A program made the translations under genes and the position numbers. From IMG/VR virus record IMGVR_UViG_3300020154_000010, positions 1 through 38,179 of that record: DNA of 38,179 nucleotides; one strand, written 5' to 3'. This stretch comes from a virus. Shown here in pieces: positions 634 to 18,619 of this stretch; the stretch's first letter is position 1, and each line of letters begins with the position of its first letter. The notes under the pieces were generated by a model, which was not told the origin of the DNA, made no database searches, and saw only the letters and a list, made by a program, of their open reading frames with translations.

Positions 634-722
634 TTGTCCCAGCTTCTGGGGTAAGCCCCAAAGAGCTGAAAGAGCGGAGTATTATTTTTTAAGTGGGACT
701 AAACAAAAATATAGAAACAACT
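634..722 (-). repeat. 89-bp perfect direct repeat, copy 1 (AT-rich)
   Basis: Identical over 89 bases to 18531-18619 in the same orientation, 17,897 bp apart. It is about 39% GC (35 of 89 by hand count), far below its surroundings. It contains a nested hairpin (AGCT...TGGGG/CCCCA...AGCT), an outer GTCCCA/TGGGAC inverted pair, and a tandem AAAGAGCTG AAAGAGCGG. On the plus strand it also carries ATTATTTTTTAAG and AAACAAAAATATAG. It lies 22 bases after the integrase stop and 33 bases upstream of E1. An upstream control site, a replication origin, a structured RNA or a mobile remnant are all possible. Confidence 0.95.
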
Positions 723-744
723 CCTCCGCTGTAGCTCCTTGCTC

Positions 745-2268
745 CTACTCCTCGTCGTCCCCGGCGTCCGGCTCCTCCGCCCACTGCCGCCGTAGCCGCT
801 CCGGGTCGAACCCCTTCCGCCCGCGGCGGCCAGGCAGTACGGTCAGCTCCGCGAACGCGTCGGCCAAGAGGTCACGGCGGTCATCGGTCATGGCGGTGGC
901 CCAGTGTTCGGCCATCGTCTGTCCGGTCGGCACTAGCTCTGTCCGCGTGGCCATGTCCTGTCCGGACAGCTCTCGCTGTCTGGTCTGCAGCCGCTGCAGC
1001 CGGGCGAACGTGTCCGCGTCCGCGTCCGTGGCCAAGTCGGCCAATGTCTCCTTGATGTCCGCCTCCACGGCCAGCAGTTCCTCCAGGCCGGAGACGGTTG
1101 TCCGCTCCCGGTACATCGGTAGGTGGCCAACGGTGGACAGGTACAGGTCCGTAACGTACTCCTCTACAGGTACTGCGGACACCGTGACCGGCTGGCCACA
1201 CGTTCCGCCTAGGCCGCGTGTGTTACAGCGGTAGACGTACTCTGGACCGCGGACGTTGGCCGCACGCTTGTCCACTCGCAGCGTAGCTCCGCAGTCGTGG
1301 CAGGACAGGAGTCCGGACAGCAGTCGGGTCGGATGGCGGCCACCCTTACGCAGGTTCGGTTCCTTGACGGCCAGCGCCGCACGCAAGGCGGCCAGTTGGC
1401 CAGGCGTCAGGATCGGGGGGAAGGGGGTCAGGTACTCGCCCTCCTCGTCCCGAAGCGGCTTGCCGTGCTCAATGACCCTGCCCAAGATGGCGTCACTGGT
1501 GAGCACCTGAATGAGGGTTTTCCGGGTCCACGCTGCTGCGCGTCGCGGCTTGATGCCCGCGTGGTTCATGCGTCGAGAGACTCGTGTGGGGTTGTCGGGG
1601 GCGTGTGAACGCAAGATGGCGTCAGCGGCGTCCCGTATCGCGGCTGCTTCCTGCGGCTCAATCGTCAGCACCTTGCCTGGCCCATCGGGGTTGTCGATGG
1701 CCTGGTACCCGAAAGGTGTCTCCCCGCCAGTCCATCGGCCGGCGCGGTGGAGACGTCGGGCGCGGTCCCGGTTGCGCTGTCGGATACGTTCCCGCTCTGC
1801 GCGTCCCACCTCTGCCTGGATCACGAACCGGAAGCGGAACGCGTCGCCATGAAGGGAATCCAAGCCAAAGCAGTCGACCAGCCGAACAGGCCGATGGGCG
1901 ATGCGCCCGGTTGTCGGGTCCTTCCCTTCCAGGGTGTCCAGGATGGCCGCAGCGACGTTTAGGCCCTCGCGTGTCAGCCGGTCAGTGTGGTATGGGACCA
2001 GGACGTCACAGATTCCCGTCCGAGCGTCGTTCAGCCAGGCGTTGAAACCGTCGCGGTCCCGTCGACCCCCTGACTTACCATCGTCAATGTGCAGTGCCAC
2101 CTCTTCTAGGTTCTCGCGCTGGCAGAGTGCGCGCATGTCCTCCACCATGCCGTCAAGTGAAACGTTCTCGGCGTCGGAAGCTCGGGACAGTCGTGCGTAG
2201 AGGCTGGCCCTTGGCCGTCGTTTGGTCACCCGCCTAGCGTACCGTGCAAGATGTGGGTTTGGTTGCAC
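745..2268 (-). CDS. int: Large serine recombinase (phage integrase)
   Basis: Catalyses site-specific recombination between phage attP and host attB through a 5' phosphoserine link. The N-terminal resolvase domain carries YARLSRAS, with the likely nucleophile at Ser28, then DGKSGGRRDRDGF and YHTDRLTRE with the usual arginines. A recombinase domain follows (GGETPFGYQAI to about residue 270). A zinc ribbon comes next (CHDCGATL, later C and C, about 325-360), then a coiled coil (about 395-445) typical of these integrases. At 507 residues it is at the short end for the class. The start is uncertain: the longest frame begins with GTG at 2268. A GTG at 2229 gives MTKRRPRASLYARLS, has a TACGCT -10-like box seven bases before it, and could be leaderless. 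It is the last minus-strand gene before the divergent plus-strand trio. Confidence 0.95.
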   Translation of the reverse strand: MQPNPHLARYARRVTKRRPRASLYARLSRASDAENVSLDGMVEDMRALCQRENLEEVALHIDDGKSGGRRDRDGFNAWLNDARTGICDVLVPYHTDRLTREGLNVAAAILDTLEGKDPTTGRIAHRPVRLVDCFGLDSLHGDAFRFRFVIQAEVGRAERERIRQRNRDRARRLHRAGRWTGGETPFGYQAIDNPDGPGKVLTIEPQEAAAIRDAADAILRSHAPDNPTRVSRRMNHAGIKPRRAAAWTRKTLIQVLTSDAILGRVIEHGKPLRDEEGEYLTPFPPILTPGQLAALRAALAVKEPNLRKGGRHPTRLLSGLLSCHDCGATLRVDKRAANVRGPEYVYRCNTRGLGGTCGQPVTVSAVPVEEYVTDLYLSTVGHLPMYRERTTVSGLEELLAVEADIKETLADLATDADADTFARLQRLQTRQRELSGQDMATRTELVPTGQTMAEHWATAMTDDRRDLLADAFAELTVLPGRRGRKGFDPERLRRQWAEEPDAGDDEE

Positions 2269-2416
2269 CTTTGACGTCGCGGGGGTACCCTCAAAACCAC
2301 ATCACGCGAGGGCAAACTACCAGGTGAGCCCGTGGGGGTGACGGTACGCTGATGTCCTGGCGCTGGCACTGGCTGGCACCTACTCTGAAAGCCCGTCAAC
2401 GCCCCCAGGAGTGAAT
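2269..2416. other. Divergent intergenic region between integrase and plus-strand operon; candidate attP/promoter zone
   Basis: No gene is seen here. It holds TTTGAGGGTACC and GACGTCAAA (minus strand), which form a small TTTGA/TCAAA inverted pair. On the plus side it holds the ribosome site AGGAG at 2407-2411. Serine-integrase attP sites often lie beside int, so this and the stretch 3' of int are the natural places to look. No att core can be read from sequence alone. Confidence 0.3.
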
Positions 2417-2716
2417 GTGAAGATCCGTCCTGCCTACCGCGTGACTGTGCTGCACAAGGGTGAGCAAGTGGGCGACCGGCCCGCGGCAGACTGGACATCG
2501 GTCCGCAAGGAGGTTGGGGACATGGTCGAACAGGTCATGGCTGGCCTGGACGACAACGCCACGGAAGACGCAACCATGATGGATCTGCCCGCGCTGAACA
2601 GGGCCCTGACGGACCCCCAGACGCAGCGCACGGTGGACACATCCGGCGCCTGGCGCGGGGCCCTCCCGATGGCCAGGGCTTCCGTCACGATCACGAGACT
2701 GTTGGAGGGACAGTGA
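2417..2716 (+). CDS. Unknown protein, first gene of plus-strand trio
   Basis: Predicted 99 residues. AGGAG at 2407-2411 is five bases before GTG 2417; an earlier in-frame GTG at 2411 overlaps that site and is rejected. The sequence begins MKIRPAYRVTVLHKGEQVGD and continues as a short beta-rich part, then a helical middle, ending TITRLLEGQ. I do not recognise a family. The stop overlaps the next GTG start by four bases, so the gene is translationally coupled to the two paralogous genes downstream. This is one of very few plus-strand transcription units and is divergent from the integrase. Confidence 0.65.
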   Translation: MKIRPAYRVTVLHKGEQVGDRPAADWTSVRKEVGDMVEQVMAGLDDNATEDATMMDLPALNRALTDPQTQRTVDTSGAWRGALPMARASVTITRLLEGQ

Positions 2717-2940
2717 AGCGGTACGCGGTTGGGCCCGTTAACGAGTCACGGTCGTTCGGGCACGTTCGGTACGGCATCTGGGACCGGAAGCTGCACTGGT
2801 ACTGCGCATTGCCAGACAGCGCAGGGAACATGATCCCGCTGGAGTGGAGGACGCCGGCAGGCGCAGAGGCCTGGCTGCTTCGCTGCCACGCGGCCTGGTA
2901 CACGGGAGAGATTCCGGCTCCTGCTGGGTGGCGCGGATGA
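2713..2940 (+). CDS. Unknown small Trp-rich protein (paralogue of next gene)
   Basis: 75 residues, GTG start overlapping the previous stop (GTGA), preceded by GGAGGGACA. Sequence runs MKRYAVGPVNESRS, then FGHVRYGIWDRKLHWYC, LEWRTPAGAEAWLLRCHAAWYTG. It shares a pattern with the next gene: F-G-x-x-x-x-G-I-W-D, then a W-rich segment, A-x-x-W-L-x-x-C-x-x-x-W. The two look like tandem duplicates. No known domain is recognised; the fold may be a small alpha/beta domain. A CGTTAACG motif lies inside the coding region as Val-Asn. Confidence 0.65.
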   Translation: MKRYAVGPVNESRSFGHVRYGIWDRKLHWYCALPDSAGNMIPLEWRTPAGAEAWLLRCHAAWYTGEIPAPAGWRG

Positions 2941-3248
2941 AGTCCAGGTACGAGGTCCGACCCATGCCCAGGGGAACCATGTTCGGCATCTGGGACTTGC
3001 GGTTCGGGGAGTTCTGTGGCTTGCCGAGCCGGCGCCCAAACGAGGGGCCCGACGGTCGTTTGGTATGGCCAGAGGGCGAAGATTCCTGGTGGCTGGAGTT
3101 CAGCACTCCGGAGCGGGCACAGAGGTGGCTCCGCTGGTGTGTCGACACGTGGAAGACTTGGCCGCAGGAGTTCGCTCCCAGCGGCTACGGGCGACGGCCG
3201 GAGAAGACACGGCCCGCGGCTACGAGGCGTCGGCAAGCCGACTCATAG
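2937..3248 (+). CDS. Unknown Trp-rich protein (paralogue of previous gene)
   Basis: 103 residues from ATG 2937, which overlaps the previous stop by four bases (ATGA). Upstream in-frame ATG codons would lie deep in the previous gene. MFGIWDLRFGEFCGL and WWLEFSTPERAQRWLRWC mirror the GIWD and W-L-x-x-C motifs of the gene before. A basic tail (GYGRRPEKTRPAATRRR) follows. The 3' end overlaps, tail to tail, the minus-strand gene ending at 3220. Function unknown. Confidence 0.6.
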   Translation: MKSRYEVRPMPRGTMFGIWDLRFGEFCGLPSRRPNEGPDGRLVWPEGEDSWWLEFSTPERAQRWLRWCVDTWKTWPQEFAPSGYGRRPEKTRPAATRRRQADS

Positions 3249-3606
3249 GGGCGTCTGTGGAGGCCTCCCGGGATAAGTCCTGGGGGGCCTTTGTGCTGCG
3301 CGGAACCCACGGCTCTCCACACTCCGTGTACCGCCCCAGGTCGGCTTCCCACGCCCACTCGTCGCGGCCGTAGACGAGTCCCGACCCAGCTCCGTAGACG
3401 GTGATGATGAAGCGTTCCCCCGCGTCTGTCGGCCGCAGCATGAACGCCACGACAGACCCGTACGACCGGAGCAGCCGCGGAAGCTCGTCGGTAGACTGAA
3501 CGGTTTCTCTGGCCAGCGGGTCATCTCCGCTCCACGGGACCCATATCCAGCCGAACGACGTTTGCGAAGGTACGAACGCGCGCAACGCGACACGTAGATG
3601 TGCCAT
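3220..3606 (-). CDS. Unknown protein, single-gene unit
   Basis: 128 residues from ATG 3606, chosen because TAGGAG lies five bases upstream; a longer frame from 3699 has no ribosome site. It reads MAHLRVALRAFVPSQTSFGW, then a mixed beta-rich middle with FIITVYGAGSGLVYGRDEW, ending in a polar tail. It looks like a soluble alpha/beta protein of no family I know. Upstream, TATTCT about 37 bases before the ATG could be a -10 box. The region 3607-3700 also has two CGTAACA repeats. It is insulated by the terminator at 3708-3728, so it is probably transcribed alone, and it converges on the plus-strand trio. Confidence 0.6.
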   Translation of the reverse strand: MAHLRVALRAFVPSQTSFGWIWVPWSGDDPLARETVQSTDELPRLLRSYGSVVAFMLRPTDAGERFIITVYGAGSGLVYGRDEWAWEADLGRYTECGEPWVPRSTKAPQDLSREASTDAPMSRLADAS

Positions 3607-3707
3607 GCGATCTCCTACAAAGGTCCAACTTTCAATGAGAATACGCGAATCGGACACACCGTCTACACATCGTTCGTAACACCTGCGTAACAGCGCCACA
3701 CAACGAC

Positions 3708-3728
3708 AAAGGGCCCCCGAAGGGGCCC
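3708..3728 (-). terminator. Intrinsic terminator after the membrane-HTH gene
   Basis: Minus strand GGGCCCCTTCGGGGGCCC followed by TTTG: a seven-pair GC stem with a short TTCG-containing loop, just after the stop of the gene at 3743. Confidence 0.8.
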
Positions 3729-3742
3729 ATGGGTGTCGCTGG

Positions 3743-4537
3743 TCACGCGGGTTGCAGCTCCGCCTTCATGCGCTTCGCTGCCCGGTCGGCTTCCCAGTCC
3801 TTCAAGTACCGCCTACCGGACCGGTCGCTGACGCCGAAGTACTGCGCGAGGGCCTTGCCGGTAAGGGGCTCGTTGTCGCTGCGCAGATCCTCCACGGCCT
3901 GGTTGATCTCTTCAAGCGTCGGCTTGGTTGACGGGGTGAACACCGCCACTACCGATTCGTCGGGAACATCCTCGTTAACGCATTCAACCTCTGGACCATC
4001 GTCCTCGTCCGCATCCACCGTGTCGTTAACGGCCGTCAGGTGCTGCAGCTCCTCGTCCAGGATCTCAGCGAACTCGTCCGACACCTGCAACACCTGCCCT
4101 GCCAGCATCGGCGTCTCCTGCACCTCCACGTCCTTCCCTGCGGCCACGGCCACATGGATCTGACGCATAAGCGCACCGAACGCCAGCAGGGCGGCAGTGG
4201 GCGGCACAGCGGCCACGATGTACTCAATGGCCGGGGCGTCAGGCCCCACACCGTACACGTTCAGCCCGATGGAGCCGACCGAGCCGGCCACGGTCAGGCC
4301 GATGGCCCACCCGTCCTTGCGCTTGGCCAGGGCAGCCACCAGCATCATGACCTCGCCCGCGACGATGAAGAGGTCAAGGGTCGCTGGCCAGGCCCAGGAC
4401 CTGATTGGGGAGTTCCCGAGTCCGTACGTCGCTGCCACCTCCTGGAGATGTGCGTACGACAGCCAGAACGCTACGGCGGTCAGGACGACGATTACCGCGC
4501 CGGCTGCCACGGTGAGTCGGGTACGGATCGAGTTCAC
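3743..4537 (-). CDS. DUF2637-like membrane protein with C-terminal helix-turn-helix
   Basis: 264 residues, GTG start with AAAGGGA nine bases upstream. The first 130 residues hold about four membrane segments: AAGAVIVVLTAVAFWLSYAH, a stretch around LDLFIVAGEVMMLVAALAK, one around IGLTVAGSVGSIGLNVYGV, and AAVPPTAALLAFGALM. This is the arrangement of the DUF2637/Spd-type proteins of actinobacterial plasmids and phages. An acidic linker follows (about 150-200), then LTGKALAQYFGVSDRSGRRY, a clear helix-turn-helix, near residues 222-245. It could be a membrane-tethered DNA-binding regulator or DNA-anchoring protein. It sits alone between promoter P1, which has a palindromic operator, and a terminator. 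No soluble phage repressor is seen elsewhere, so it is a candidate regulator; that role is inference. Confidence 0.8.
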   Translation of the reverse strand: MNSIRTRLTVAAGAVIVVLTAVAFWLSYAHLQEVAATYGLGNSPIRSWAWPATLDLFIVAGEVMMLVAALAKRKDGWAIGLTVAGSVGSIGLNVYGVGPDAPAIEYIVAAVPPTAALLAFGALMRQIHVAVAAGKDVEVQETPMLAGQVLQVSDEFAEILDEELQHLTAVNDTVDADEDDGPEVECVNEDVPDESVVAVFTPSTKPTLEEINQAVEDLRSDNEPLTGKALAQYFGVSDRSGRRYLKDWEADRAAKRMKAELQPA

Positions 4538-4559
4538 GGTGTGGTCCCTTTCGTCAGAT

Positions 4560-4577
4560 GCCCCTCTTGGGGCGGCT
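4560..4577. repeat. 18-bp dispersed repeat with hairpin, copy 1
   Basis: GCCCCTCTTGGGGCGGCT occurs here and at 6751-6768, identical. GCCCC/GGGGC form a stem. This copy lies in the 5' leader of the membrane-HTH gene, about ten bases after the P1 -10 box. Weaker relatives occur at 6444-6458 and 14893-14910. Confidence 0.75.
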
Positions 4578-4586
4578 GATGGTGTG

Positions 4587-4616
4587 AAAGTAGTCGACTC
4601 AATCGAGTCACGTCAA
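4587..4616 (-). promoter_or_regulatory. P1: sigma70-like promoter with palindromic operator in spacer
   Basis: Minus strand TTGACG (4616-4611), an 18-bp spacer, then TACTTT (4592-4587). The spacer contains the perfect palindrome GACTCGATTGAGTC (4596-4609). The same -35, spacer length and TACTTTCACA are found in P2. It drives the gene at 3743-4537; its -35 overlaps the stop of the gene at 4613. Confidence 0.75.
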
Positions 4617-5026
4617 CCTGCAGCGCCGTTGTCCCCGGTCGGACCGTCTTCCAACTGCACCGTGAACAGCGCGGTCATAGCCTGGCCGATGTATCCCCCT
4701 TCCCCGCCGACGCTGATGGCGTGATCCACCAGTACCGCGCTGCTGTGCCGCTTCTCGCCAAGGGCCTCCGCGGCTTCTGTCTCCGACATGTCCAGCAGGA
4801 TCGCTGCCGTCCGCGGGCCCATCGTTACTCCGCAACCCGTGTCCTGCGACAGTGCCAGCATCAGGAGCGCAGCGTGCTCGCGGACCAGGTTCAGTTCCGC
4901 GTACAGCGCGTCGATGTGCGCCGACTCGTTCAGGGATTCCAGATCCCGCTCTATCAGCGGCTCGTACGGCGCGCAGAGGGGGGTGCACTTGTGCTCGGGG
5001 TTGGTGGCGGCGTCAAAGTCGGACAT
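4613..5026 (-). CDS. Unknown protein after the sigma-like gene
   Basis: 137 residues from ATG 5026, with GAGAGG six bases upstream. It opens MSDFDAATNPEHKCTPLC, continues as a helical region (YEPLIERDLESLNESAHIDALYAELNLV), then VTMGPRTAAILLDMSETEAA and an acidic C-terminus. The Cys-x-x-x-Cys near residues 14-18 may bind metal, but no family is recognised. E2, a hairpin and a CGTTAACG lie between it and the sigma-like gene. The stop overlaps the P1 -35 box, making a compact junction. Confidence 0.7.
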   Translation of the reverse strand: MSDFDAATNPEHKCTPLCAPYEPLIERDLESLNESAHIDALYAELNLVREHAALLMLALSQDTGCGVTMGPRTAAILLDMSETEAAEALGEKRHSSAVLVDHAISVGGEGGYIGQAMTALFTVQLEDGPTGDNGAAG

Positions 5027-5075
5027 GAGGTGCCTCTCGTTAACGGGAGAGGGGCCCCAGGCCGGGACCCCTCTG

Positions 5076-5100
5076 CTACTGCTCCGGGAAGGACGTCCCC
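5076..5100 (-). promoter_or_regulatory. E2: intergenic GGGGACGTCC element
   Basis: Minus strand GGGGACGTCCTTCCCGG then AGCAGTAGCAGAGGGG. It begins at the stop of the sigma-like gene and lies about 50 bases before the ATG at 5026. A hairpin (GAGGGG...CCCCTC) and CGTTAACG (near 5039) follow before the ribosome site. Confidence 0.6.
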
Positions 5101-6435
5101 TCAGCCCTCGGTCAGCGCGTCCACCAGGGACACTCCCTGCTTCGCTGCTGCAGCCTCCAGGGCGAACCGCTCCGACCCTGCCTTGGTCACCAGGTCCAGC
5201 CACTTCTTCGTGAACGCAGCGCGGGCCTTGTCTCGGTCCTTGCGGACCCTGGCCGGCTCCAGGTCGGCAATGCCTTCGCGCTTCATCGTGCGGGCAAGCT
5301 GCGCGTCGTCCTTGAACCGGCCCATGAAACCGAATGACGCGGCCATGATGTACGCCTGACGCGGAGACAGCATGCCGAGCACGCGACGGACGAGGGCCCG
5401 CTTCACGGCGTCCTCGGTGGCCCGCTCCAGGATGGCGCGCTGTGCGTTCAGGGCGACCGAGCCGCGGCCCAGGGCGGCGTTCATCTGAGCCTCTGCTGTG
5501 GACGCCTCAGGGTCGGACTGCCGCTGCGTGTGGAGGGCGCGGAGCATGTCGACAGCGGCGCCGAACTCCGCATTGCGGCAGGGCTGTGCCTCCATCAGGT
5601 CCAGGTCCTCTTCCGTCACGGTGCCGGCCTGGAATCGCTCAATAGCGAGCAACAGGGCCTTGCGCGTCTCCTGGTCAGCCGGCAACGGCATGTTGTCGTA
5701 GATGGCGCGTGCCGGGATGGTCCATTGGACGGGCCGGTAACCGGCCGGAACCACGTCCGTGTCGTTAACGGGCGTCGAGTCGGTCAGTGTGTCCGCAATG
5801 GTGACCGCCTCATTCGCAGTCCCCAAGCCAACAGTCCCGGCAGCCGGCGTGTAGATGCTGACCACGCCCTGGTAGGCCAGGCGGGCAGCGTAGGCAGCTT
5901 CCGGAGACATGCGGACCCTGGATTTGTATGCTCCGCCGTTCAGGGTGGCGACAAGGGCCTTGTCCTGTACCGCGGACTCCGCCATGTTCAGGTAGTCGGC
6001 CTCTGTCAGCGTGTGGTTCACGTCGGCAGCGCGGAAGTGCTTGACCATCTGCCCGAACAGCTTCTTCCCCACGCTGTCGTCGTCGGTGCCGTTCAGCATG
6101 TCGCGGGCACGGGCCGGCAACTCACGCTCCACGTAGCGGTAGGCGTAGGCCCGGAAGCCGTCAACGCTGTCCCCCTCGTACGACACCAGGCACTCCCACG
6201 CAATCAGCATGGCCTCCTGCGTCAAGTCCTCCACATACGCGGCCTTCAGGCCTTCACTGGCGTCCCCTTCGGTGCGTGCGGCAGCGCGACGGGCCAGGGC
6301 GGACAGCTTGGAGTCCAGGTCAAACAGGATGGTCGCGCCAGCGTCCCGGTCGCCTGCCTTGGCTGCAGCAAGAGTCTCGTCAGTGCCGACGTCGGAGAGA
6401 AGAGAGCCGATGACCTGGGCACGAGTGGTGTTCAC
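5101..6435 (-). CDS. Divergent sigma-70-family-like transcription factor
   Basis: 444 residues from GTG 6435, with AAAGAGGGG upstream; this GTG-AAC start mirrors the membrane-HTH gene. Residues about 25-111 look like sigma region 2: AAAKAGDRDAGATILFDL, then VEDLTQEAMLIAWECLVSY and FRAYAYRYVERELPARAR. The DLTQEA and aromatic/basic segment match the core-binding and -10 recognition helices. Residues about 350-412 resemble region 4: VLGMLSPRQAYIMAASFGF, DDAQLARTMKR, then VRKDRDKARAAF. The middle of about 230 residues is unlike common sigma factors. If functional it would redirect host RNA polymerase to phage promoters. It has its own sigma70-type promoter (P2) and a long leader. The family call is from motifs only. 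Confidence 0.65.
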   Translation of the reverse strand: MNTTRAQVIGSLLSDVGTDETLAAAKAGDRDAGATILFDLDSKLSALARRAAARTEGDASEGLKAAYVEDLTQEAMLIAWECLVSYEGDSVDGFRAYAYRYVERELPARARDMLNGTDDDSVGKKLFGQMVKHFRAADVNHTLTEADYLNMAESAVQDKALVATLNGGAYKSRVRMSPEAAYAARLAYQGVVSIYTPAAGTVGLGTANEAVTIADTLTDSTPVNDTDVVPAGYRPVQWTIPARAIYDNMPLPADQETRKALLLAIERFQAGTVTEEDLDLMEAQPCRNAEFGAAVDMLRALHTQRQSDPEASTAEAQMNAALGRGSVALNAQRAILERATEDAVKRALVRRVLGMLSPRQAYIMAASFGFMGRFKDDAQLARTMKREGIADLEPARVRKDRDKARAAFTKKWLDLVTKAGSERFALEAAAAKQGVSLVDALTEG

Positions 6436-6561
6436 GATGTGCTGCCCCTCTTTTGGGCATGCCGGATGGAGGCACGGCGGTGCCACGGCATGGGTTGGTG
6501 GGAGTTCGTCAGGAACCAGCGGCCCGGGTGATCGGTCCCGGCCGCGTGTGACGACAATGTG
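6436..6561 (-). other. Structured 5' leader of sigma-like gene, possible leader peptide
   Basis: Between the P2 -10 box and the GTG start, GGCACCGCCGTGCC forms a hairpin nested inside ATGCCG...CGGCAT. A 19-codon frame, ATG (6491) MPWHRRASIRHAQKRGSTS, ends in TCGTGA and so overlaps the GTG start by four bases. It lacks a good ribosome site, so it may be chance. The leader could allow translational control. Confidence 0.35.
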
Positions 6562-6591
6562 AAAGTACGCGCCTCAATTGAGTCGCGTCAA
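6562..6591 (-). promoter_or_regulatory. P2: sigma70-like promoter with palindromic operator
   Basis: Minus strand TTGACG (6591-6586), an 18-bp spacer containing CTCAATTGAG (6573-6582), and TACTTT (6567-6562) followed by CACA. It is almost identical to P1 in both boxes, spacing and the position of the palindrome. It drives the sigma-like gene. Confidence 0.75.
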
Positions 6592-6786
6592 CTCTTCGTT
6601 CACAACACTGACACACCGTGTGCGCACCAAAGCCCCTGGTAACCGAGGTGCAACGCAGATCGTGCCTAGGTATGAGGCGATAACGACCCGTGGATGGCAT
6701 GTGAAGGTTGGGATTGTGTGAAGAGTTGACCTTGGGAACAGGCGCCAGACGCCCCTCTTGGGGCGGCTATCGCAGGCGCAGAGCCG
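6592..6786. other. Intergenic stretch between P2 and the polymerase terminator
   Basis: No gene is supported in about 195 bases. The only minus-strand frame here (start 6700) would run through P2. It contains the second copy of the 18-bp repeat at 6751-6768. Confidence 0.5.
6751..6768. repeat. 18-bp dispersed repeat with hairpin, copy 2
   Basis: GCCCCTCTTGGGGCGGCT, identical to 4560-4577. Here it lies downstream of the polymerase terminator and about 160 bases before P2, not in a clear leader. Confidence 0.75.
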
Positions 6787-6821
6787 AAAAGGGCCCCCTG
6801 GGGGTGGTCACCAAGGGGCCC
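6787..6821 (-). terminator. Intrinsic terminator after DNA polymerase
   Basis: Minus strand GGGCCCC, a 21-base loop region, GGGGCCC, then TTTTC. It lies seven bases after the polymerase stop. Confidence 0.75.
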
Positions 6822-6827
6822 GGTCGG

Positions 6828-8684: not shown

Positions 8685-8725
8685 GCGGGCGTCCCCTCTC
8701 CGTTAACGCTTGTGGACAGGGGCAA

Positions 8726-8753: not shown

Positions 8754-8763
8754 TGGGCTTGCA

Positions 8764-11402: not shown

Positions 11403-11436
11403 GTGCGGGGACTCCTCTCGTCAGGGGTCTGTCAAT

Positions 11437-11460
11437 CCCTGACCGGGAAGGACGTCCCCT
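11437..11460 (-). promoter_or_regulatory. E4: intergenic GGGGACGTCC element
   Basis: Minus strand AGGGGACGTCCTTCCCGG then TCAGGGATTGACAG. It lies immediately after the terminator at 11469-11497 and about 35 bases before the primase-helicase start. A post-terminator position favours a promoter. It lacks the GTAG seen in the other copies. Confidence 0.6.
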
Positions 11461-11468
11461 GCAACGAC

Positions 11469-11497
11469 AAAGCCCCCGGCCAGCAAGGGCCAGGGGC
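11469..11497 (-). terminator. Intrinsic terminator after resolvase-like gene
   Basis: Minus strand GCCCCTGGCC, loop CTTGCT, GGCCGGGGGC, then TTTG. Ten pairs with one G-T wobble. Confidence 0.75.
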
Positions 11498-11507
11498 AGG
11501 TGTCGGA

Positions 11508-12946: not shown

Positions 12947-13086
12947 GACCCCTCCACTTCGTTAACCAACTCAGGTGTGATCCACGCTGCGCGGACAGCG
13001 GGAGTGAGGCAGGCGACGTCGACAGGCTCTTGGTCAGGCACGGGCCAGACCGGGTGGCAGTTGTCGGGGATGCCGGTTCGGTTCAC
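12943..13086 (-). CDS. 47-residue protein, coupled at both ends
   Basis: GTG 13086 overlaps the upstream stop by four bases, with GGAGG five bases before it. The stop TGA overlaps the next ATG (ATGA). Encodes MNRTGIPDNCHPVWPVPDQE, then PVDVACLTPAVRAAWITPEL. No family recognised. Perfect fit between two coupled genes and a strong ribosome site make it convincing. Confidence 0.7.
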   Translation of the reverse strand: MNRTGIPDNCHPVWPVPDQEPVDVACLTPAVRAAWITPELVNEVEGS

Positions 13087-13280
13087 GAGTCCTCCAGTTC
13101 ACGGCGCCAGAGTCGCGCTTCCGTTCGGCGGATCTGCCGACGGTGCTGACGGCCGTTGTCGCCCTCGTCCATGTAGCGGTTGGGCAGGATGCGGGAGTTG
13201 CCGGACACCCCGCTGTTGCGCTTGAAGCGTCGGTGCCAGCGCCAGCGGCCAGTGAGGGGGACAGGGTCACGACGGAACAT
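13083..13280 (-). CDS. Very basic 65-residue protein
   Basis: ATG 13280, chosen because AAGGAGG lies ten bases upstream with CGTTAACG filling the whole gap between ribosome site and start. Sequence MFRRDPVPLTGRWRWHRRFK, later RQHRRQIRRTEARLWRRELE, is rich in Arg and Trp. Possibly a nucleic-acid-binding peptide; no family recognised. The stop overlaps the next GTG. Confidence 0.65.
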   Translation of the reverse strand: MFRRDPVPLTGRWRWHRRFKRNSGVSGNSRILPNRYMDEGDNGRQHRRQIRRTEARLWRRELEDS

Positions 13281-13282
13281 CG

Positions 13283-13384
13283 TTAACGCCTCCTTCTCCA
13301 CGGGCGGACGTCCAGGGCCCAGCAGAGGGCAGTGATGACGGACAGGAGGGTCAGGACTCGGAACAGGACGTCGATGGGGGTCAC
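13283..13384 (-). CDS. 33-residue single-pass membrane peptide
   Basis: GTG 13384 overlaps the upstream stop by four bases. MTPIDVLFRVLTLLSVITAL continues CWALDVRPWRRRR: one hydrophobic helix followed by a positive tail, predicting the C-terminus inside. The stop TAA lies in the CGTTAACG that precedes the next start, two bases away. The role is unknown. Confidence 0.6.
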   Translation of the reverse strand: MTPIDVLFRVLTLLSVITALCWALDVRPWRRRR

Positions 13385-13590
13385 GGCTGTACCTCCGTCA
13401 CTTCCACGCGGATACGGAAGGTTGCCGTGTCTCCGCCGTTGGCCGGCGTCTCGTACTCGACCGTGATTGAGTCGTCGTCCCCGCCAGTCATGCGAATCCG
13501 GCTCTGCGGTCCGCTGTTCGGGAAGGTGTACCCCGGCAGCCATTCAGCGAGGGTGCTCAGGGCGTCGTCTGTGATGTTCTCTGGGGTCAC
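13381..13590 (-). CDS. Acidic 69-residue protein of unknown function
   Basis: GTG 13590 overlaps the upstream stop by four bases. It begins MTPENITDDALSTLAEWLPG, a helix, followed by beta-rich DSITVEYETPANGGDTATFR and a C-terminal strand. No known family recognised. It is part of the seven-gene coupled chain 13778 to 11508. Confidence 0.65.
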   Translation of the reverse strand: MTPENITDDALSTLAEWLPGYTFPNSGPQSRIRMTGGDDDSITVEYETPANGGDTATFRIRVEVTEVQP

Positions 13591-13778
13591 TGGCCGGCCC
13601 CCTGCACTGTCTGGCGAACCTCAGCGCCGCGGGCCACGGCCTGGCCGATGGCGTCCTGGTACCGGCCCCAGTCCTTGCGCTGTGTCGCGTTGGGACAGAC
13701 GACAATGACGTCCCCCAGTCCCATGACCCTGATGTCTCCCAGAGGAGCGGCGTACAGCTTGCCTACCAGTCGGCGCAT
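13587..13778 (-). CDS. 63-residue protein of unknown function
   Basis: ATG 13778 with AGGGAG seven bases upstream and CGTTAACG (near 13793) before that. MRRLVGKLYAAPLGDIRVMG followed by DVIVVCPNATQRKDWGRYQD suggests a small alpha/beta protein. It heads the coupled chain; a leader hairpin (13819-13844) lies upstream. Confidence 0.65.
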   Translation of the reverse strand: MRRLVGKLYAAPLGDIRVMGLGDVIVVCPNATQRKDWGRYQDAIGQAVARGAEVRQTVQGAGQ

Positions 13779-13818
13779 GTGCGTCTCCCTGTCGTTAACG
13801 GCTGTTGGCACGGCCCAA

Positions 13819-13844
13819 GCCGGACCCCAGGGAAGGGGCCCGGC
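13819..13844 (-). other. Leader hairpin H2
   Basis: Minus strand GCCGGGCCCC, loop TTCCCT, GGGGTCCGGC, followed by TTGGGCCGTGCCAACAG. Ten pairs with one G-T wobble. Confidence 0.65.
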
Positions 13845-13859
13845 CGGTGGCAGGGAGGG

Positions 13860-14255
13860 TCAGATCTTGGTGAGTCTGGAGCCGTAGTTGTAGTGGCTGA
13901 CCAGGACAGGCAGCGTCCAGTTCTGGTAAGCGTCACCGACGTCAGGTTCGGTGCAGGAGAACAGCGGCATACCGCTGCCGTCGTACGCTCCCGTGAACGC
14001 CCACATGTCGCCCGAGGGGTCCCGGTACTTGGCCTTCAGGTCGTACGTCACGCCCTCGTACTCGTAGGTGTCGTCGGCCTGGGCCGTCGGTGCCATCAGG
14101 GCGTCGTAAACGCGCCCGTTGGCCCCGTCACCAGCGCCGTAGAGTTGCTTGCCCGTAAGGCTCACAAGCCAGGCGTGCTCCTCAGCGGACAGGGTCAGCG
14201 TGTAGACGTCCTCCGTGGTGGTGATCTCGCGCGTCGTCTTGATGGCTTCAGCCAT
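13860..14255 (-). CDS. 131-residue protein of unknown function
   Basis: ATG 14255 with GAGAGGA about six bases upstream. It starts MAEAIKTTREITTTEDVYTL, continues TLSAEEHAWLVSLTGKQLY, then a beta-rich region with YEYEGVTYDLKAKYRDPSGD and TLPVLVSHYNYGSRLTKI. The pattern of short strands suggests a small beta domain. No domain recognised. Hairpins flank it on both sides. Confidence 0.7.
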   Translation of the reverse strand: MAEAIKTTREITTTEDVYTLTLSAEEHAWLVSLTGKQLYGAGDGANGRVYDALMAPTAQADDTYEYEGVTYDLKAKYRDPSGDMWAFTGAYDGSGMPLFSCTEPDVGDAYQNWTLPVLVSHYNYGSRLTKI

Positions 14256-14293
14256 TGCAGGTCCTCTCATGGAAGGGGTCTGGCACGGCCCAA

Positions 14294-14319
14294 GCCGGAC
14301 CCCCGTCAGGAGGCCCGGC
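14294..14319 (-). other. Leader hairpin H3
   Basis: Minus strand GCCGGGCC, CTCCTGACGG region, GGTCCGGC, then TTGGGCCGTGCCAGACC. Stem, wobble position and flank match H2. Confidence 0.65.
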
Positions 14320-14333
14320 CAGCGGCAGGGAGG

Positions 14334-14870
14334 TCAGCGCTTGCGGAGGTACGGGGGAAAGACGTACGCGCTGTGCCTGCCGTCCGCGGATGTCACGTAG
14401 TAATCCCCGTCGGTGTCGGGGCCGTACGACACCGTTGCGTATCCCGAGAACTCCGCGGGGTAGCCGCCCGCACTCCTTGCATCGCGAGAGACCATGACCC
14501 TGTCGCCTTCAGCGAACGTCTGGTCCTCGAACGACTGGCTCTCGGCGGGGGACATGTAGCGCTCGGTCGTGGTCAGGTGGTTACCGTTGCCATCCCGCAG
14601 GACGTACAGGCTGCTGCGCTCCGCGCTCTGGAACGGGCCGGCCGCGACAGTGAGCGGGTCGGGACCGAACACCTCCACCGTGACACGGTCGTTAACGGCG
14701 AACGCGGGCAGCGCGGTCAGGTTCTGCTCCGAATAGCCGCCCGACCGGCCGTCTGAGAACTCCACCAGGTGGAGCGGCTTGTCACTGAGTCGACCCGTGT
14801 ACGGCCCGTAAACGACCGTGCCGACGCCGTGAATCTCGTGCTTGACCTTGTCCCCGACCTTGAACGTCAT
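14334..14870 (-). CDS. Protein with three tandem SH3/KOW-like modules
   Basis: 178 residues from ATG 14870, with GAAGAGGGA upstream. Three similar beta modules are visible: FKVGDKVKHEIHGVGTVVYG (residue 3 on), FAVNDRVTVEVFGPDPLTV (about 56 on) and FAEGDRVMVSRDARSAGGYP (about 115 on). Each starts F-x-x-x-D-x-V and goes on to a G-rich strand and a Y/V strand, as in SH3-like or KOW-like barrels. Such modules bind nucleic acid or protein. The function in this phage is unknown. Confidence 0.7.
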   Translation of the reverse strand: MTFKVGDKVKHEIHGVGTVVYGPYTGRLSDKPLHLVEFSDGRSGGYSEQNLTALPAFAVNDRVTVEVFGPDPLTVAAGPFQSAERSSLYVLRDGNGNHLTTTERYMSPAESQSFEDQTFAEGDRVMVSRDARSAGGYPAEFSGYATVSYGPDTDGDYYVTSADGRHSAYVFPPYLRKR

Positions 14871-14929
14871 GGCGTGTCCCTCTTCCGTTAACGCCCCTAT
14901 GAGGGCGGCTGGCTGTTGGCACCCCGAAG

Positions 14930-14955
14930 GCCTGGCCCCCGTCAAGGGACCAGGC
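14930..14955 (-). other. Leader hairpin H4
   Basis: Minus strand GCCTGGTCCC, TTGAC loop, GGGGGCCAGGC, then CTTCGGGGTGCCAACAG. The stem bases differ from H2/H3 (CTGG for CGGG) but pairing is kept. A second small stem (CGCCCT/AGGGGCG) and CGTTAACG lie nearer the start at 14870. Confidence 0.6.
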
Positions 14956-14964
14956 AGGTGCGGG

Positions 14965-15156
14965 TCAGGCGGTGCAGCGGACAGGAGAGGACTGGCGGGC
15001 ACGGTGGAGAGCGGCCAGCGTCGCAACGGCTTCACTGCGGGCCTTACGAACAGTGCTGATAACATCCCCGTCGCTGTTCAGTGTCACGAACTCGGTCAGG
15101 CCGTTGGACAGGCGGGCAGCGCGGACGGTGGAGCCGTTAACGAGGTTGAATACCAT
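14965..15156 (-). CDS. 63-residue protein of unknown function
   Basis: ATG 15156, with GGAGG seven bases upstream. MVFNLVNGSTVRAARLSNGL followed by TEFVTLNSDGDVISTVRKAR suggests a beta hairpin pair and a C-terminal helix. CGTTAACG encodes Val-Asn at residues 6-7. No family recognised. Confidence 0.65.
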   Translation of the reverse strand: MVFNLVNGSTVRAARLSNGLTEFVTLNSDGDVISTVRKARSEAVATLAALHRARQSSPVRCTA

Positions 15157-15191
15157 GCGGGACCTCCAGGAAGGGTGTTGGCACGGCCCAA

Positions 15192-15217
15192 GGCCTGACC
15201 CCGTCAAGGGCCAGGCC
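15192..15217 (-). other. Leader hairpin H5
   Basis: Minus strand GGCCTGGCCC, TTGAC loop, GGGGTCAGGCC, then TTGGGCCGTGCCAACACC. The flank is the same as in H2 and H3. Confidence 0.65.
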
Positions 15218-15222
15218 AAGGG

Positions 15223-15438
15223 TCATGCCGGGAAGGCCTCCATCAGGTCGGTGTCCTCGTCATCGGACAGGGCGGCGACGTCGATACGCTCATCGGGGAT
15301 GCCGAAGCGTCGGCGGCGTTCGTGCAGGACGGGCTTGCGGGCGGCAGGGGCGAAATCCCACAGCGGACGGAGGATCTCCTCGTCCGGCGCGGTCTGCAGG
15401 GCAGCCGTCACCAGCCGCTGACCAAGGTCACTCAGCAT
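15223..15438 (-). CDS. 71-residue protein following the RDF candidate
   Basis: ATG 15438 lies inside the last codons of the RDF-like gene (11-base overlap). MLSDLGQRLVTAALQTAPDE continues EILRPLWDFAPAARKPVLHE, and ends in an acidic tail (DDEDTDLMEAFPA). Mostly helical. No family recognised; translation is probably coupled to the gene upstream. Confidence 0.6.
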   Translation of the reverse strand: MLSDLGQRLVTAALQTAPDEEILRPLWDFAPAARKPVLHERRRRFGIPDERIDVAALSDDEDTDLMEAFPA

Positions 15439-16138
15439 GCGGGTCGGACGCGATGGCGTCGTTGTACGAGGAGACGACGTCCAGGACCGGCTTCGTGAAC
15501 GACTTGGTCTCACCGTTCTTCTCGTACTCCACGTACTCCAGGCGCAGCGTGCACAGCGCCAAGCCATCGATGCGGGAGAGGGCCTTCATCGTGTAGGGCA
15601 GGTCCTCGGCGAACGACCAGGCCGTGGCGGTGTACTTGCCCGTGCCCAGGTCCTCGTCATCCGGAAGCTGAATCGGGATGACGATGTTCGGCTTGGGGCC
15701 GCGACGCTGACGGGCCTTCTCCTTGCGCTCCGCCAGGATCTTCGGGCAGTCGCACGGCTTGCCCTTGTCCTCTTCGGGGGACAGGAACACGCTGCCGTCG
15801 CACTCGTGGATCGGCAGGCCGTCCGCCCACTGGATGAGCTTGCTCTCGATCTTGGAGGCGTCCACGACGACGGAGATGCTGTCAGTGTCGGTGTCAACCG
15901 CGTAGTCCCCGTTCGGGGCTTCACTGATGGTGCCGTTGTACAGCTCCTTCAGGGCCTGGGCCACATCGTGCTTGGGGGTGGTGATGCGCCACTTGCGGAG
16001 ACTGATCGGCTGGTTGCCAACGCGCTTGCCAGAGCGGAACTGAAAGGCCCACTCCGGGCGCTTGGACGCCGCCTTGGCGGCCTCCCGTTCCTCGCGCTGG
16101 GCCTTGGCCTCGGGGTCGGTGGCAAAGATGTCAAGCAT
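15428..16138 (-). CDS. Probable recombination directionality factor, phiC31 gp3-like
   Basis: 236 residues from ATG 16138, with GGAGGG nine bases upstream. The opening MLDIFATDPEAKAQREEREA, the segment FRSGKRVGNQPISLRKWRIT, and the Cys cluster (IHECDG, then KGKPCDCPKILAERK) followed by GPKPNIVIPIQLPDDEDLG and ATAWSFAEDLP match my memory of the gp3-type family of serine-integrase directionality factors, also about 240 residues. These proteins bind the integrase coiled coil and switch it from attP x attB to attL x attR recombination. Presence of a serine integrase in the same genome and an early-region location agree. Family members also occur without proven RDF activity, so the role is likely but not shown. 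Confidence 0.6.
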   Translation of the reverse strand: MLDIFATDPEAKAQREEREAAKAASKRPEWAFQFRSGKRVGNQPISLRKWRITTPKHDVAQALKELYNGTISEAPNGDYAVDTDTDSISVVVDASKIESKLIQWADGLPIHECDGSVFLSPEEDKGKPCDCPKILAERKEKARQRRGPKPNIVIPIQLPDDEDLGTGKYTATAWSFAEDLPYTMKALSRIDGLALCTLRLEYVEYEKNGETKSFTKPVLDVVSSYNDAIASDPHAE

Positions 16139-16195
16139 GCGGAACCCTCCACGGGGTGGCTGACGAGTGACTGAAGATGGGGCGCGAACCCTCTG

Positions 16196-16220
16196 CTACT
16201 GACCGGGGAGGACGTCCCCT
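16196..16220 (-). promoter_or_regulatory. E5: intergenic GGGGACGTCC element
   Basis: Minus strand AGGGGACGTCCTCCCCGG then TCAGTAGCAGAGGG. About 58 bases before the RDF-like start. GGGGA/TCCCC can pair around a five-base loop. Confidence 0.6.
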
Positions 16221-16254
16221 GGCGGCAGGGGCGGGCCGCGCGATTGCCCCTCTG

Positions 16255-16279
16255 CTACTGACCGGGCAGGACGTCCCCC
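16255..16279 (-). promoter_or_regulatory. E6: GGGGACGTCC element overlapping a gene end
   Basis: Minus strand GGGGGACGTCCTGCCCGG then TCAGTAGCAGAGGG. It encodes the last residues (DVLPGQ) and TAG stop of the gene at 16255-16695. It is 59 bases from E5, so the two form a tandem pair. Confidence 0.6.
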
Positions 16280-16695
16280 GCGGTGAACAGGGCCAGTTGG
16301 TCCGTCTTCAGCGGCAGCCGGCCGACGCGGACCGGGGCAGCGGAACGGGCACAGAAGACGACCTGGCCGTGCTCACCCACGCGGGCCCTGTCGCTCGGGA
16401 CGTCGTACTGCCAGAGACGGAAGCCAAGCCGGTCCAGCATGGGGAGATGATCCGCGAACCAGGCGGACAGAGCTTCCAGGGAGCTGAAGCCACAGACTTC
16501 GTGCTTCTCAATGCCCAGGGTCGGATCTTGCTTGGGGGAGTTGTGCCAGTCGTCGTTGTGGTCCCACCACATGGTCAGCAGATCGTCAGGTACTCCACGC
16601 TCGAACCGCTGGCCGGCCGCGTACGGTCCGCAGGGAAACGGGTGGCCGGCAACTTCGCGCGTGCTGGACTCATGGGCGACGCGGAAAACGCGCAT
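16255..16695 (-). CDS. 146-residue protein of unknown function
   Basis: ATG 16695, with GAGGAG directly followed by CGTTAACG and then ATG. It begins MRVFRVAHESSTREVAGHPF, then PDDLLTMWWDHNDDWHNSPK, HEVCGFSSLEALSAWF and LGFRLWQYDVPSDRARVGEH. The mix of a Trp/His-rich middle and a helix-strand end suggests a soluble alpha/beta enzyme-like domain, but no family is recognised. Its 3' end is the E6 element. E7 and a terminator lie upstream, so it starts a transcription unit. Confidence 0.7.
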   Translation of the reverse strand: MRVFRVAHESSTREVAGHPFPCGPYAAGQRFERGVPDDLLTMWWDHNDDWHNSPKQDPTLGIEKHEVCGFSSLEALSAWFADHLPMLDRLGFRLWQYDVPSDRARVGEHGQVVFCARSAAPVRVGRLPLKTDQLALFTAGDVLPGQ

Positions 16696-16724
16696 CGTTA
16701 ACGCTCCTCGGTCGATGGTCTGTC

Positions 16725-16752
16725 GCTACCAGTCCGGGGAGGACGTCCCCTG
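16725..16752 (-). promoter_or_regulatory. E7: intergenic GGGGACGTCC element
   Basis: Minus strand CAGGGGACGTCCTCCCCGG then ACTGGTAGCGACAG. It lies right after the strongest terminator of the window (16769-16810) and about 35 bases before an ATG. This position is the best support for a promoter role. Confidence 0.65.
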
Positions 16753-16768
16753 GTCCGCGGGCGCAACG

Positions 16769-16810
16769 AAAAAAGGCCCCCGACCAGGCTCGAAAGCCAG
16801 GCCGGGGGCC
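16769..16810 (-). terminator. Strong intrinsic terminator of the exonuclease operon
   Basis: Minus strand GGCCCCCGGCCTGGCTTTCG then AGCCTGGTCGGGGGCC and TTTTTTCG. A long stem with one G-T wobble and a six-T tract. Confidence 0.9.
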
Positions 16811-16832
16811 ATGTGGGGGACAGCGGGGAGGG

Positions 16833-16934
16833 TCAGCGATGAGCCTTCGAGCCACACTTGCAGCCGCAGGTCCAGCAGTAGTCCGGGTCCCGCTGCTCCT
16901 CTTCAGTCGCGGACAGGATCGCGGTCGGGGGCAA
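16833..16934 (-). CDS. 33-residue Cys-cluster peptide
   Basis: TTG 16934 with AAGGAGG eight bases upstream, immediately after the stop of the 96-residue gene. Encodes MPPTAILSATEEEQRDPDYC then WTCGCKCGSKAHR. Four Cys in C-x-x-C-x-C-x-C with a nearby His could bind one zinc. A small acidic part precedes it. It ends 22 bases before the terminator stem, so it is the last gene of the exonuclease operon. No family known. Confidence 0.6.
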   Translation of the reverse strand: MPPTAILSATEEEQRDPDYCWTCGCKCGSKAHR

Positions 16935-16936
16935 GG

Positions 16937-17227
16937 TCAGGCCTCCTTGGTCGACTCGGACAGGAAGTCGCGGACCAGTTCCGGTATGGTCCCGTCCGCT
17001 TTGCACAGCACGATCACGTTGTCACCCATGAGTTGCCGGCGACGGGTCACGTCCTCGCGGATGCCGTTAACGAAGGACTGAGACACCTCCATACCGGACG
17101 TATGCCCGTACCGGCCCTGCCCCGCGTAGACACGGCCCAGCTTCATGCGTCCGCCCGTAGTCGACGCGGACAGCACGTAGTCGCCTGGTTCGAGCGGCTC
17201 CCCCAGGGAGTCAGTGCGCTGCGGCAT
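16937..17227 (-). CDS. 96-residue protein of unknown function
   Basis: ATG 17227 overlaps the upstream stop by one base (TGATG) with AGGAGG upstream. MPQRTDSLGEPLEPGDYVLS continues ASTTGGRMKLGRVYAGQGRY, resembling a small beta barrel, then FVNGIREDVTRRRQLMGDNV and a helical end. No family recognised. Second of the small genes after the exonuclease. Confidence 0.7.
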   Translation of the reverse strand: MPQRTDSLGEPLEPGDYVLSASTTGGRMKLGRVYAGQGRYGHTSGMEVSQSFVNGIREDVTRRRQLMGDNVIVLCKADGTIPELVRDFLSESTKEA

Positions 17228-17577
17228 CAGGCCTCCTGTCTGGAGTCGCCGGCCAGGAAGCGGGCCAGTCTCTCGACCGCGTCCACCTTGTCAGCGAAGC
17301 GGACACCGTCCTGATAGCCGCGGCCGTTCGTGGACAGGGCGTTGACGTGCTCCGTGGCCTTGGCCAGAGCCTCTTCACGGGTCATGGCGGGAGTCTCCTC
17401 GGGGTCCGGGGGCGGAATGGGGCAGTCGGTGTCCGGGTCGTTAACGGGAGTCAGGGGGCCGTACTCGTATTCCAGCTCCGTCAGGGACCGAGGAGCGTAT
17501 ACGCTGAAGTGGTACAGGCCGTTACTGTCCCGCGTCCACACATCGCCTTCGCTGTCCTTGTACGCAAGCGCGCTCAT
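17227..17577 (-). CDS. 116-residue protein of unknown function
   Basis: ATG 17577 with AGGGGGAAG upstream, one base after the exonuclease stop. MSALAYKDSEGDVWTRDSNG and LYHFSVYAPRSLTELEYEYG form a beta-rich first part; a Pro-rich link with CPIPPPDPEET follows, then helices MTREEALAKATEHVNAL and KVDAVERLARFLAGD. No family recognised; its place after the exonuclease hints at an accessory role. Confidence 0.7.
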   Translation of the reverse strand: MSALAYKDSEGDVWTRDSNGLYHFSVYAPRSLTELEYEYGPLTPVNDPDTDCPIPPPDPEETPAMTREEALAKATEHVNALSTNGRGYQDGVRFADKVDAVERLARFLAGDSRQEA

Positions 17578-17578
17578 G

Positions 17579-18436
17579 TCACTTCCCCCTTCGCTGCGTG
17601 CCGGTCACCATGGCGCCCTTGGACGAGGCCAGGGGCTTGCCGATGACGTCCTTGGAGTCCTCGCGGACCCATCGGAACGTCTTGCGGAGGTTCAGGAACG
17701 CGTCGAACACGTCACGGTCAGCGCGGACGCCCTTGAAGGCCCACTGGTCATCGGTGATGTGCAGGACCGCGGCAGAGTTGACGGCCGGCATCGGCTCCTC
17801 GTTGCCGTCCGGGTCGATCACGACGTCCGCGTAGCGGTAGGCCGCGAGCTGCAAGGCCACGTCTGAGTAGGTGTCCTTGCTGGTCTTATAGTCGACCATC
17901 ACCAGGATCGGCGTACCGGAGCGGTCAGGGGTGACGCTGACGTTGCCCTTGGCATCGACTCGAACCCAGACGCGAAGGATGGCGTCGAAAGAACCGGCGT
18001 AGTCGTGCTCGTAGGACCAGGCCACGTCCTCAGCGCGAACCAGCTCGGGGTTGACAGCGGCCAGGAACTCGCGGAAGTGCTGGACGTGGTTAACGATGTC
18101 CGAGTGGACGACGTCCAGTTCCTCGCCGTTCATCAGCCGCTCGAACGCGTCGTGAGCGCGACTGCCCAGCTTGGACCGGGCCTCTGTGTAGCGGCGGGCA
18201 GCGCCAGAGATGTACCGCTTGGCCCCGGCACGGTCGCGGGCGGCCATCTGCTGCAGGTAGTCGAACGAGTCGATGGCCAGATCAGCGGCCATGCCGGCTT
18301 GCCACGGACCTAGGAAGTCCTGCTTCGGGATCATGCCGATGATGCTGGTGACGCCAGGGACGGTGATGTTGGGTCGGGCATCGTTCACGTAGAAACGTGC
18401 GCCTGCCTTCTTCATGGTGCCGATGGTCGGGGACAC
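17579..18436 (-). CDS. PD-(D/E)XK exonuclease, Cas4/RecB-like
   Basis: 285 residues from GTG 18436, with GGAGG five bases upstream. LGSRAHDAFERLMNGEE (His95), YAGSFDAILRVWV (Asp151), VMVDYKTSKDT (Asp182, Lys184) and DVALQLAAYRYADVV (Gln196, Tyr200) make the full H-D-DxK-Q-Y signature of RecB/Cas4-like nucleases. The enzyme probably resects double-stranded ends for phage recombination or replication. No iron-sulphur Cys cluster is visible, unlike true Cas4. First gene of an operon that ends at the terminator 16769-16810. Its upstream region holds E8 and the 89-bp repeat. Confidence 0.9.
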   Translation of the reverse strand: MSPTIGTMKKAGARFYVNDARPNITVPGVTSIIGMIPKQDFLGPWQAGMAADLAIDSFDYLQQMAARDRAGAKRYISGAARRYTEARSKLGSRAHDAFERLMNGEELDVVHSDIVNHVQHFREFLAAVNPELVRAEDVAWSYEHDYAGSFDAILRVWVRVDAKGNVSVTPDRSGTPILVMVDYKTSKDTYSDVALQLAAYRYADVVIDPDGNEEPMPAVNSAAVLHITDDQWAFKGVRADRDVFDAFLNLRKTFRWVREDSKDVIGKPLASSKGAMVTGTQRRGK

Positions 18437-18470
18437 GGGGGCCTCCAGTAGTGGGGCGGAATTGCCGTCA

Positions 18471-18496
18471 CTACTGACCGGGAAGGGTGTCCCCCA
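18471..18496 (-). promoter_or_regulatory. E8: GGGGACGTCC-type element (variant)
   Basis: Minus strand GGGGGACACCCTTCCCGG then TCAGTAGTGACGG. It shares the ACACCC variant with E1 only, and is 34 bases downstream of the 89-bp repeat, as E1 is from copy 1. Confidence 0.6.
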
Positions 18497-18530
18497 GCGG
18501 AGAGGGGAGGGCGTTGCTAAAGCCGAGGTA

Positions 18531-18619
18531 TTGTCCCAGCTTCTGGGGTAAGCCCCAAAGAGCTGAAAGAGCGGAGTATTATTTTTTAAGTGGGACTAAA
18601 CAAAAATATAGAAACAACT
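18531..18619 (-). repeat. 89-bp perfect direct repeat, copy 2
   Basis: Identical to 634-722 in sequence and orientation. It lies between terminator T5 of the upstream gene and E8, upstream of the exonuclease operon. Flanks on both sides differ from copy 1, so the duplicated unit is exactly these 89 bases. Confidence 0.95.

Follow-up and report, generated by a model that had tools for sequence, protein, structure and literature searches.

The window analysed here is the whole 38,179-base stretch of IMG/VR virus record IMGVR_UViG_3300020154_000010, a viral genome whose closest named relatives are the Streptomyces phages Dubu and phiSASD1 (~77-78% identity over the aligning parts). It contains an 89-base sequence twice, once between the repressor gene c and the exonuclease gene and once just downstream of the integrase gene int. 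We use the name X, coined here, for a repeat in the c-exonuclease gap that has a second copy downstream of int, and call the two copies X1 and X2. Coordinates are those of the window; the order of parts is given in the sense of transcription, the genes concerned lying on the minus strand. The features of the two loci are as follows, E denoting a short element of lytic-promoter type and ORF an open reading frame.

18702-19646, minus strand: repressor gene of the phiC31 c family (PF25746, E 4.9e-63)
18531-18619, minus strand: X1, 89-bp repeat copy identical to X2, between the repressor gene c and the exonuclease gene
18588-18601, minus strand: upstream arm of X1, GTTTAGTCCCACTT
18531-18542, minus strand: downstream arm of X1, AAGCTGGGACAA
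18478-18494, minus strand: E8, lytic-promoter type element, GGGGACACCCTTCCCGG
17579-18436, minus strand: exonuclease gene, counterpart of phiC31 gene 1 and first gene past X1 and E8
745-2268, minus strand: serine integrase gene int; X2 starts 22 bp past its stop codon
634-722, minus strand: X2, 89-bp repeat copy, flanked by int (transcriptionally upstream) and ORF 171-545
691-704, minus strand: upstream arm of X2, GTTTAGTCCCACTT, core GTCCCA at 694-699
634-645, minus strand: downstream arm of X2, AAGCTGGGACAA, core TGGGAC at 636-641, 52 nucleotides (nt) from the other core
583-599, minus strand: E1, element of lytic-promoter type, AGGGACACCCTTCCCGG, corresponding to the late lytic promoter annotated in phiC31
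171-545, minus strand: first gene past X2 and E1, function unassigned

At both places the order is repeat, then E, then gene. The initial annotation of this DNA had described an identical, AT-rich repeat, and so it proved: the copies match exactly over 89 bases, the flanks diverge immediately, and the G+C content is 0.393 (39%) against 0.655 (65.5%) for the genome. No other exact direct repeat in the window comes close in length: the runner-up has only 27 bases, so a chance origin is excluded.

X in phages with a c-family repressor

For each of 15 phages, the 300 bases upstream of the exonuclease gene were compared with the rest of the same genome. All 15 c-family Streptomyces phages (the window and 14 others) have the pair, with one copy in the c-exonuclease gap and the other downstream of int. 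In 14 of them the best match elsewhere lies where the integrase gene ends, between 29 bases ahead of the stop codon and 180 past it; in RemusLoopin the match at this place ranks second. Both copies have common inverted arms around an AT-rich centre in phiSASD1, Dubu, phiC31, BT1, TG1, Vash, Shawty, AbbeyMikolon, Heather, Sebastisaurus, Samora, Shaeky and Lilbooboo. The viral genomes G004 and G006 also show both copies. A tblastn search with the window c gave matches only in Streptomyces phages of the phiC31/Dubu kind, and no X pair was found in phiJoe, a Streptomyces phage without a c-family repressor match. X1 and X2 are separated by 40-51% of the genome length. None of the public records examined annotates either copy; X may already have been described in the phiC31 papers of the 1990s.

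Both copies are kept in phiSASD1 despite the loss of most of c and part of int, and we therefore take X to serve lytic growth. The c remnant and truncated integrase of this phage (L003, 18480-18880 and 33088-33852) stand against a literature title that calls it temperate.

Within a phage the inverted arms are common to both copies; between phage groups their sequence varies. GTTTnGTCCCA arms occur in the window, phiSASD1, L005, L027, L009 and L007, and TTGTTTGA (TTTGA) in Dubu and L006. The phiC31 group has GTGAYG units at 8-nt intervals, with a similar arrangement in AbbeyMikolon, the Heather group has GTGCA units, and Shaeky has GTGTCGATTCTGAG. Throughout the GTCCCA group the gap from core to core is constant at 52-53 nt, and the intervening sequence is poorly conserved. 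The tandem AAAGAGC units and the GGGG/CCCC hairpin pointed out by the initial annotation are indeed present in the window, but neither is conserved in relatives, and the structured RNA for which they had left room is not supported (see Discussion). Downstream of a related integrase on another viral contig, L024, arms GGTGTTTC...GAAACACC flank an AT-rich centre (2190-2310), possibly another X arm type.

The two copies of one phage are 73-88% alike in relatives as against perfect identity in the window, so that recent copying or gene conversion, two of the options named at the outset, is the likely origin of the identity. In the phiC31 group, the two copies of a phage resemble each other more, on average, than do same-locus copies from different phages (0.84 vs 0.79). 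This is reversed in the Heather group (0.75 vs 0.88), and conversion is thus occasional. A third group in this comparison is disregarded, as it was affected by a wrong slice of L025.

E elements as probable lytic promoters

The window holds nine E elements, all on one strand, where shuffled sequences lead one to expect 0.09. Every c-family phage has its own short E element, of which there can be as many as about twelve copies per phage, all on the gene strand and ~40-50 nt ahead of the starts of early genes. That of phiC31 is GGTTGCCGACTCCCTTA, and in GenBank X91149.1 bases 174-194, TCAGGTTGCCGACAACCTTCA, annotated as 'promoter, late lytic', are the E element 29 nt past the phiC31 X2. Because of this annotation we read E1 and E8 as lytic promoters, by positional homology with the phiC31 promoter rather than by sequence identity. 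A lytic-promoter type element directly downstream of X is the general finding: at 29 of 30 sites an E promoter follows 0-57 nt after the end of X. In the window the gap had been put at 33-34 bases; we measured 34-37 nt, varying with the chosen start of E, and confirmed that the sequence in the gap is not conserved.

The type of E follows the phage sigma factor: the window, phiSASD1 and G001 have a common E type and sigma factors of 70-71% identity, and G003, G004, Dubu and G002, at 52-56%, have other types. In the phiC31 group (L028, 16791-16840; L014, 28174-28215) the end of E is complementary to the ribosome-binding site of the gene, giving long hairpins, and in the window GGGGACAC of E8 is complementary to GTGTCCCC where the exonuclease gene begins. 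E might have a role in translation.

Only E1 and E8 among the nine carry ACACCC, as had been reported, and it had been proposed that repeat and variant element form a composite control unit. The first half of this proposal stands, since both X copies of the window, and likewise those of the 14 other c-family phages, precede a lytic promoter. The tie between ACACCC and the repeat does not: no repeat was found around the ACACCC promoter of L027 (11885), and in most phages X stands beside ordinary promoters. Both X-side promoters are the lowest scoring of the nine E elements in the window and the lowest scoring in phiC31; those of phiSASD1 take the last and the next-to-last rank. The X-side promoters of BT1, TG1, Vash, Shawty, Dubu and Lilbooboo, however, score no worse than the others. 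A variant promoter beside X was rejected as a rule, since the scores are highest in Dubu, Vash and Shaeky and in the middle in BT1, TG1, Shawty and Lilbooboo. A pooled P value for mismatches is disregarded as biased, its consensus having been derived with the X-side sites left out. A composite with fixed spacing was also rejected, the distance ranging from 0 to 57 nt and once reaching 187. Among the nearest relatives it is the exonuclease-side promoter that tends to vary (G001, L027, G003).

Repressor operators, integrase and a possible partner of X

Three further features of the window bear on the question of which protein might act at X.

5101-6486, minus strand: phage sigma factor, candidate reader of the E promoters (phrog_15865)
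6571-6584, minus strand: c-type operator GACTCAATTGAGGC, within a TTGAC...TACTTT promoter that precedes the sigma gene
4596-4609, minus strand: second operator of c type, GACTCGATTGAGTC, within a TTGAC...TACTTT promoter that precedes ORF 3743-4537

X91149.1 annotates CIR7 and CIR8, CCTACTCACGTGAGTAG, as repressor sites, and in the window, Dubu and phiSASD1 GACTCAATTGAGTC-like palindromes lie inside TTGAC...TAC promoters. No palindrome recognised by c in the same phage group was found in X. As two likely c operators sit in promoters, one of them upstream of the sigma gene, the arrangement suggests that c represses the gene of the phage sigma factor and that this factor in turn reads the E promoters. 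The 8-mer CGTTAACG (25 copies in the window vs 0.23 expected, and seven in phiSASD1) was set aside as a c operator of the window, its flanks not being conserved and its copies lying mostly within genes.

X does not look like an attachment site of the serine integrase either: it is present in two copies instead of as a single attP of ~50 bp, phages with unrelated integrases (~25% identity) have X in common, and phiC31 has an attP-like dyad upstream of int. The partner of X is probably encoded by the phage, because Dubu and Shawty have the same host, S. platensis, and different arms. A small ORF after the exonuclease gene (17227-17577) has relatives in the GTCCCA-arm phages phiSASD1, L005, L009 and L007 and none in Dubu or L006; L027 is without it nearby. 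It tracks the arms except in L027 and is a weak candidate for the X-binding protein.

Genome setting

Early and late genes of the window lie on the minus strand, and the gene order is as in phiC31: c, X1, exonuclease, recombination directionality factor (RDF), primase, polymerase, sigma, integrase, X2. Two genes are RDF candidates, one (15428-16138) matching the Gp3-like RDF (PF18897) and the other (3743-4537) carrying DUF2637 and named excisionase in relatives. Loss of the 17.9 kb between the repeats by recombination should be lethal, because the primase, polymerase and sigma genes would go with it. A tRNA search found none and a plasmid search gave no match.

Discussion

We consider that X is an upstream DNA control site, present in two copies, through which a phage regulator would act on two lytic promoters, and put the probability of this reading at about 0.5. 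It is drawn from what can be seen in the genomes, namely the position of X, its duplication, the inverted arms, the constant arm distance in the GTCCCA group and the promoter-type element downstream; position and arms fit an activator or upstream control site. X1 would stand ahead of the early operon that opens with the exonuclease gene and X2 ahead of the right-end operon, which in phiC31 means ahead of the promoter annotated as late lytic; from there transcription would run towards the right end and the late genes. A group-specific phage protein, dimeric or in a higher complex, may bind the inverted arms and switch or boost the adjacent promoter, which would place both operons under one signal. 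The perfect identity in the window would then reflect recent gene conversion between copies that are both constrained to fit the same protein.

Several observations weigh against an upstream control site of this kind. The distance between X and promoter is variable, and X2 of TG1 lies 187 nt from its promoter. Only one X copy was found in G001 and in G002, where coverage downstream of int is not established. Nor do the regulators at hand follow the arms: the window and Dubu have a common c operator and different arms, which excludes c as the partner of X, and G003 and G004 have window-type arms with another E type and no close sigma factor, which excludes sigma as well. Finally, a role as a replication origin predicts much of the same anatomy.

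That role deserves a closer look, and phages with two origins, such as SPP1, provide the model for it. An initiator would bind the arms, the AT-rich centre would melt and transcription from the nearby promoter would help. The inverted arms, the repeats 8 nt apart in the phiC31 group and the AT-rich centre all suit an origin, as do the wide separation of the copies and their retention in phiSASD1 without c. Yet GC and AT skew show no recurring change at X, though almost every gene has the same orientation. The distance from X1 to X2 is a consequence of gene order, a promoter accompanies X at every site and no initiator gene was recognised. A pair of origins is accordingly an unlikely explanation, though one to be kept in mind. 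A far less probable idea is that X is an early promoter of host type with operators for c, the equivalent of lambda PL/PR. An AT-rich sequence beside c and ahead of the first early gene invites it, and TTGTTT-N16-TAATAC can be read in the window, but the -35/-10 pair is not conserved across X copies and a sigma-70 promoter inside X was rejected on that ground. The phiC31 operator is absent from X, the GACTCAATTGAGTC of the window group sits elsewhere, in TTGAC promoters upstream of sigma and another gene, and the arms differ where the operator is common, as in the window and Dubu; this idea is mostly refuted already.

A structured RNA at the head of each operon, whether a leader, a put/nut-type antiterminator or a small RNA, might explain why the arms are complementary in all phages despite sequence change and why X folds more strongly than shuffled sequences (mean z about -2.5). 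The two strands, however, fold equally (mean z -2.49 and -2.47), and on the gene strand G-U mismatches number 55 vs 95 for A-C, the opposite of what an RNA read from this strand would lead one to expect, with a P value that is indicative only as the sequences are related. Equal folding of the strands and the rarity of G-U mean that a DNA dyad fits better than an RNA. No Rfam family matched, the structure on the transcribed strand that marks put/nut-type RNA was not found for X, and the annotated phiC31 promoter is downstream of X, so X2 would lie outside that transcript; we hold an RNA role to be very improbable. The same is true, if anything more so, of the suggestion that X is a module boundary of no regulatory role which persists through recombination between phages. 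The copies do flank the early module, and gene conversion does occur between them, but recombination alone requires neither inverted arms, nor a constant gap between them, nor arms that change together in both copies.

Known systems offer partial parallels to the control site that we favour. The lp1 and c-gene 1 regions of phiC31 (Lomovskayavirus C31, X91149.1, NC_001978.3) have the same two places, inverted arms and AT-rich centre and, like the window, a lytic promoter just downstream of an X copy, annotated as late lytic in phiC31. They differ in that the arms, with GTGAYG repeats 8 nt apart, and the promoter GGTTGCCGACTCCCTTA are unrelated to GTCCCA and GGGGACGTCCTCCCCGG of the window, and in that the copies are 80% alike rather than identical; X itself is unannotated there. 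phiSASD1 (Sasdunavirus) is closer, sharing the GTCCCA/TGGGAC arms, a gap of 52-53 nt, the two places and the E type, whereas its copies are 76% alike, c is almost entirely lost and int is truncated. The c-bound CIR sites of phiC31 are, like X, repeated inverted DNA sites in intergenic positions of the same phages, but each is a single 17-bp palindrome in ~15 copies, as opposed to two arms ~50-60 nt apart, two copies and no CIR inside. In cluster K mycobacteriophages, the ESAS/SAS elements comprise 17-bp inverted repeats that are subcluster-specific and precede a short repeated element close to the starts of genes (PMC3203893). ESAS resembles X in its group-specific inverted repeats upstream of such an element; it has spacers of 4-13 bp and many copies beside a start-associated sequence, in contrast to two copies of X with a gap of >50 nt beside a promoter. 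Streptomyces phages also carry the R4 stoperators, dispersed regulatory sites that are bound by the repressor of R4 and block elongation (PMC10276819). These are many single repressor-bound sites, unlike the paired dyad X, which as judged by its sequence is not bound by c.

The most used integration vectors derive from phiC31, a phage in which the coordination of early and late lytic genes is only partly known. Being present in every c-family phage examined, unannotated, and beside an annotated late promoter, X offers a small testable target. Its arms indicate that the specificity of the presumed regulator changed several times, with a constant architecture and with both places of one genome in step. 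We tentatively suggest that phages of the phiC31 family may have a third layer of control beside c and sigma, in which a group-specific protein on two dyad sites would couple early and late lytic transcription or start replication.

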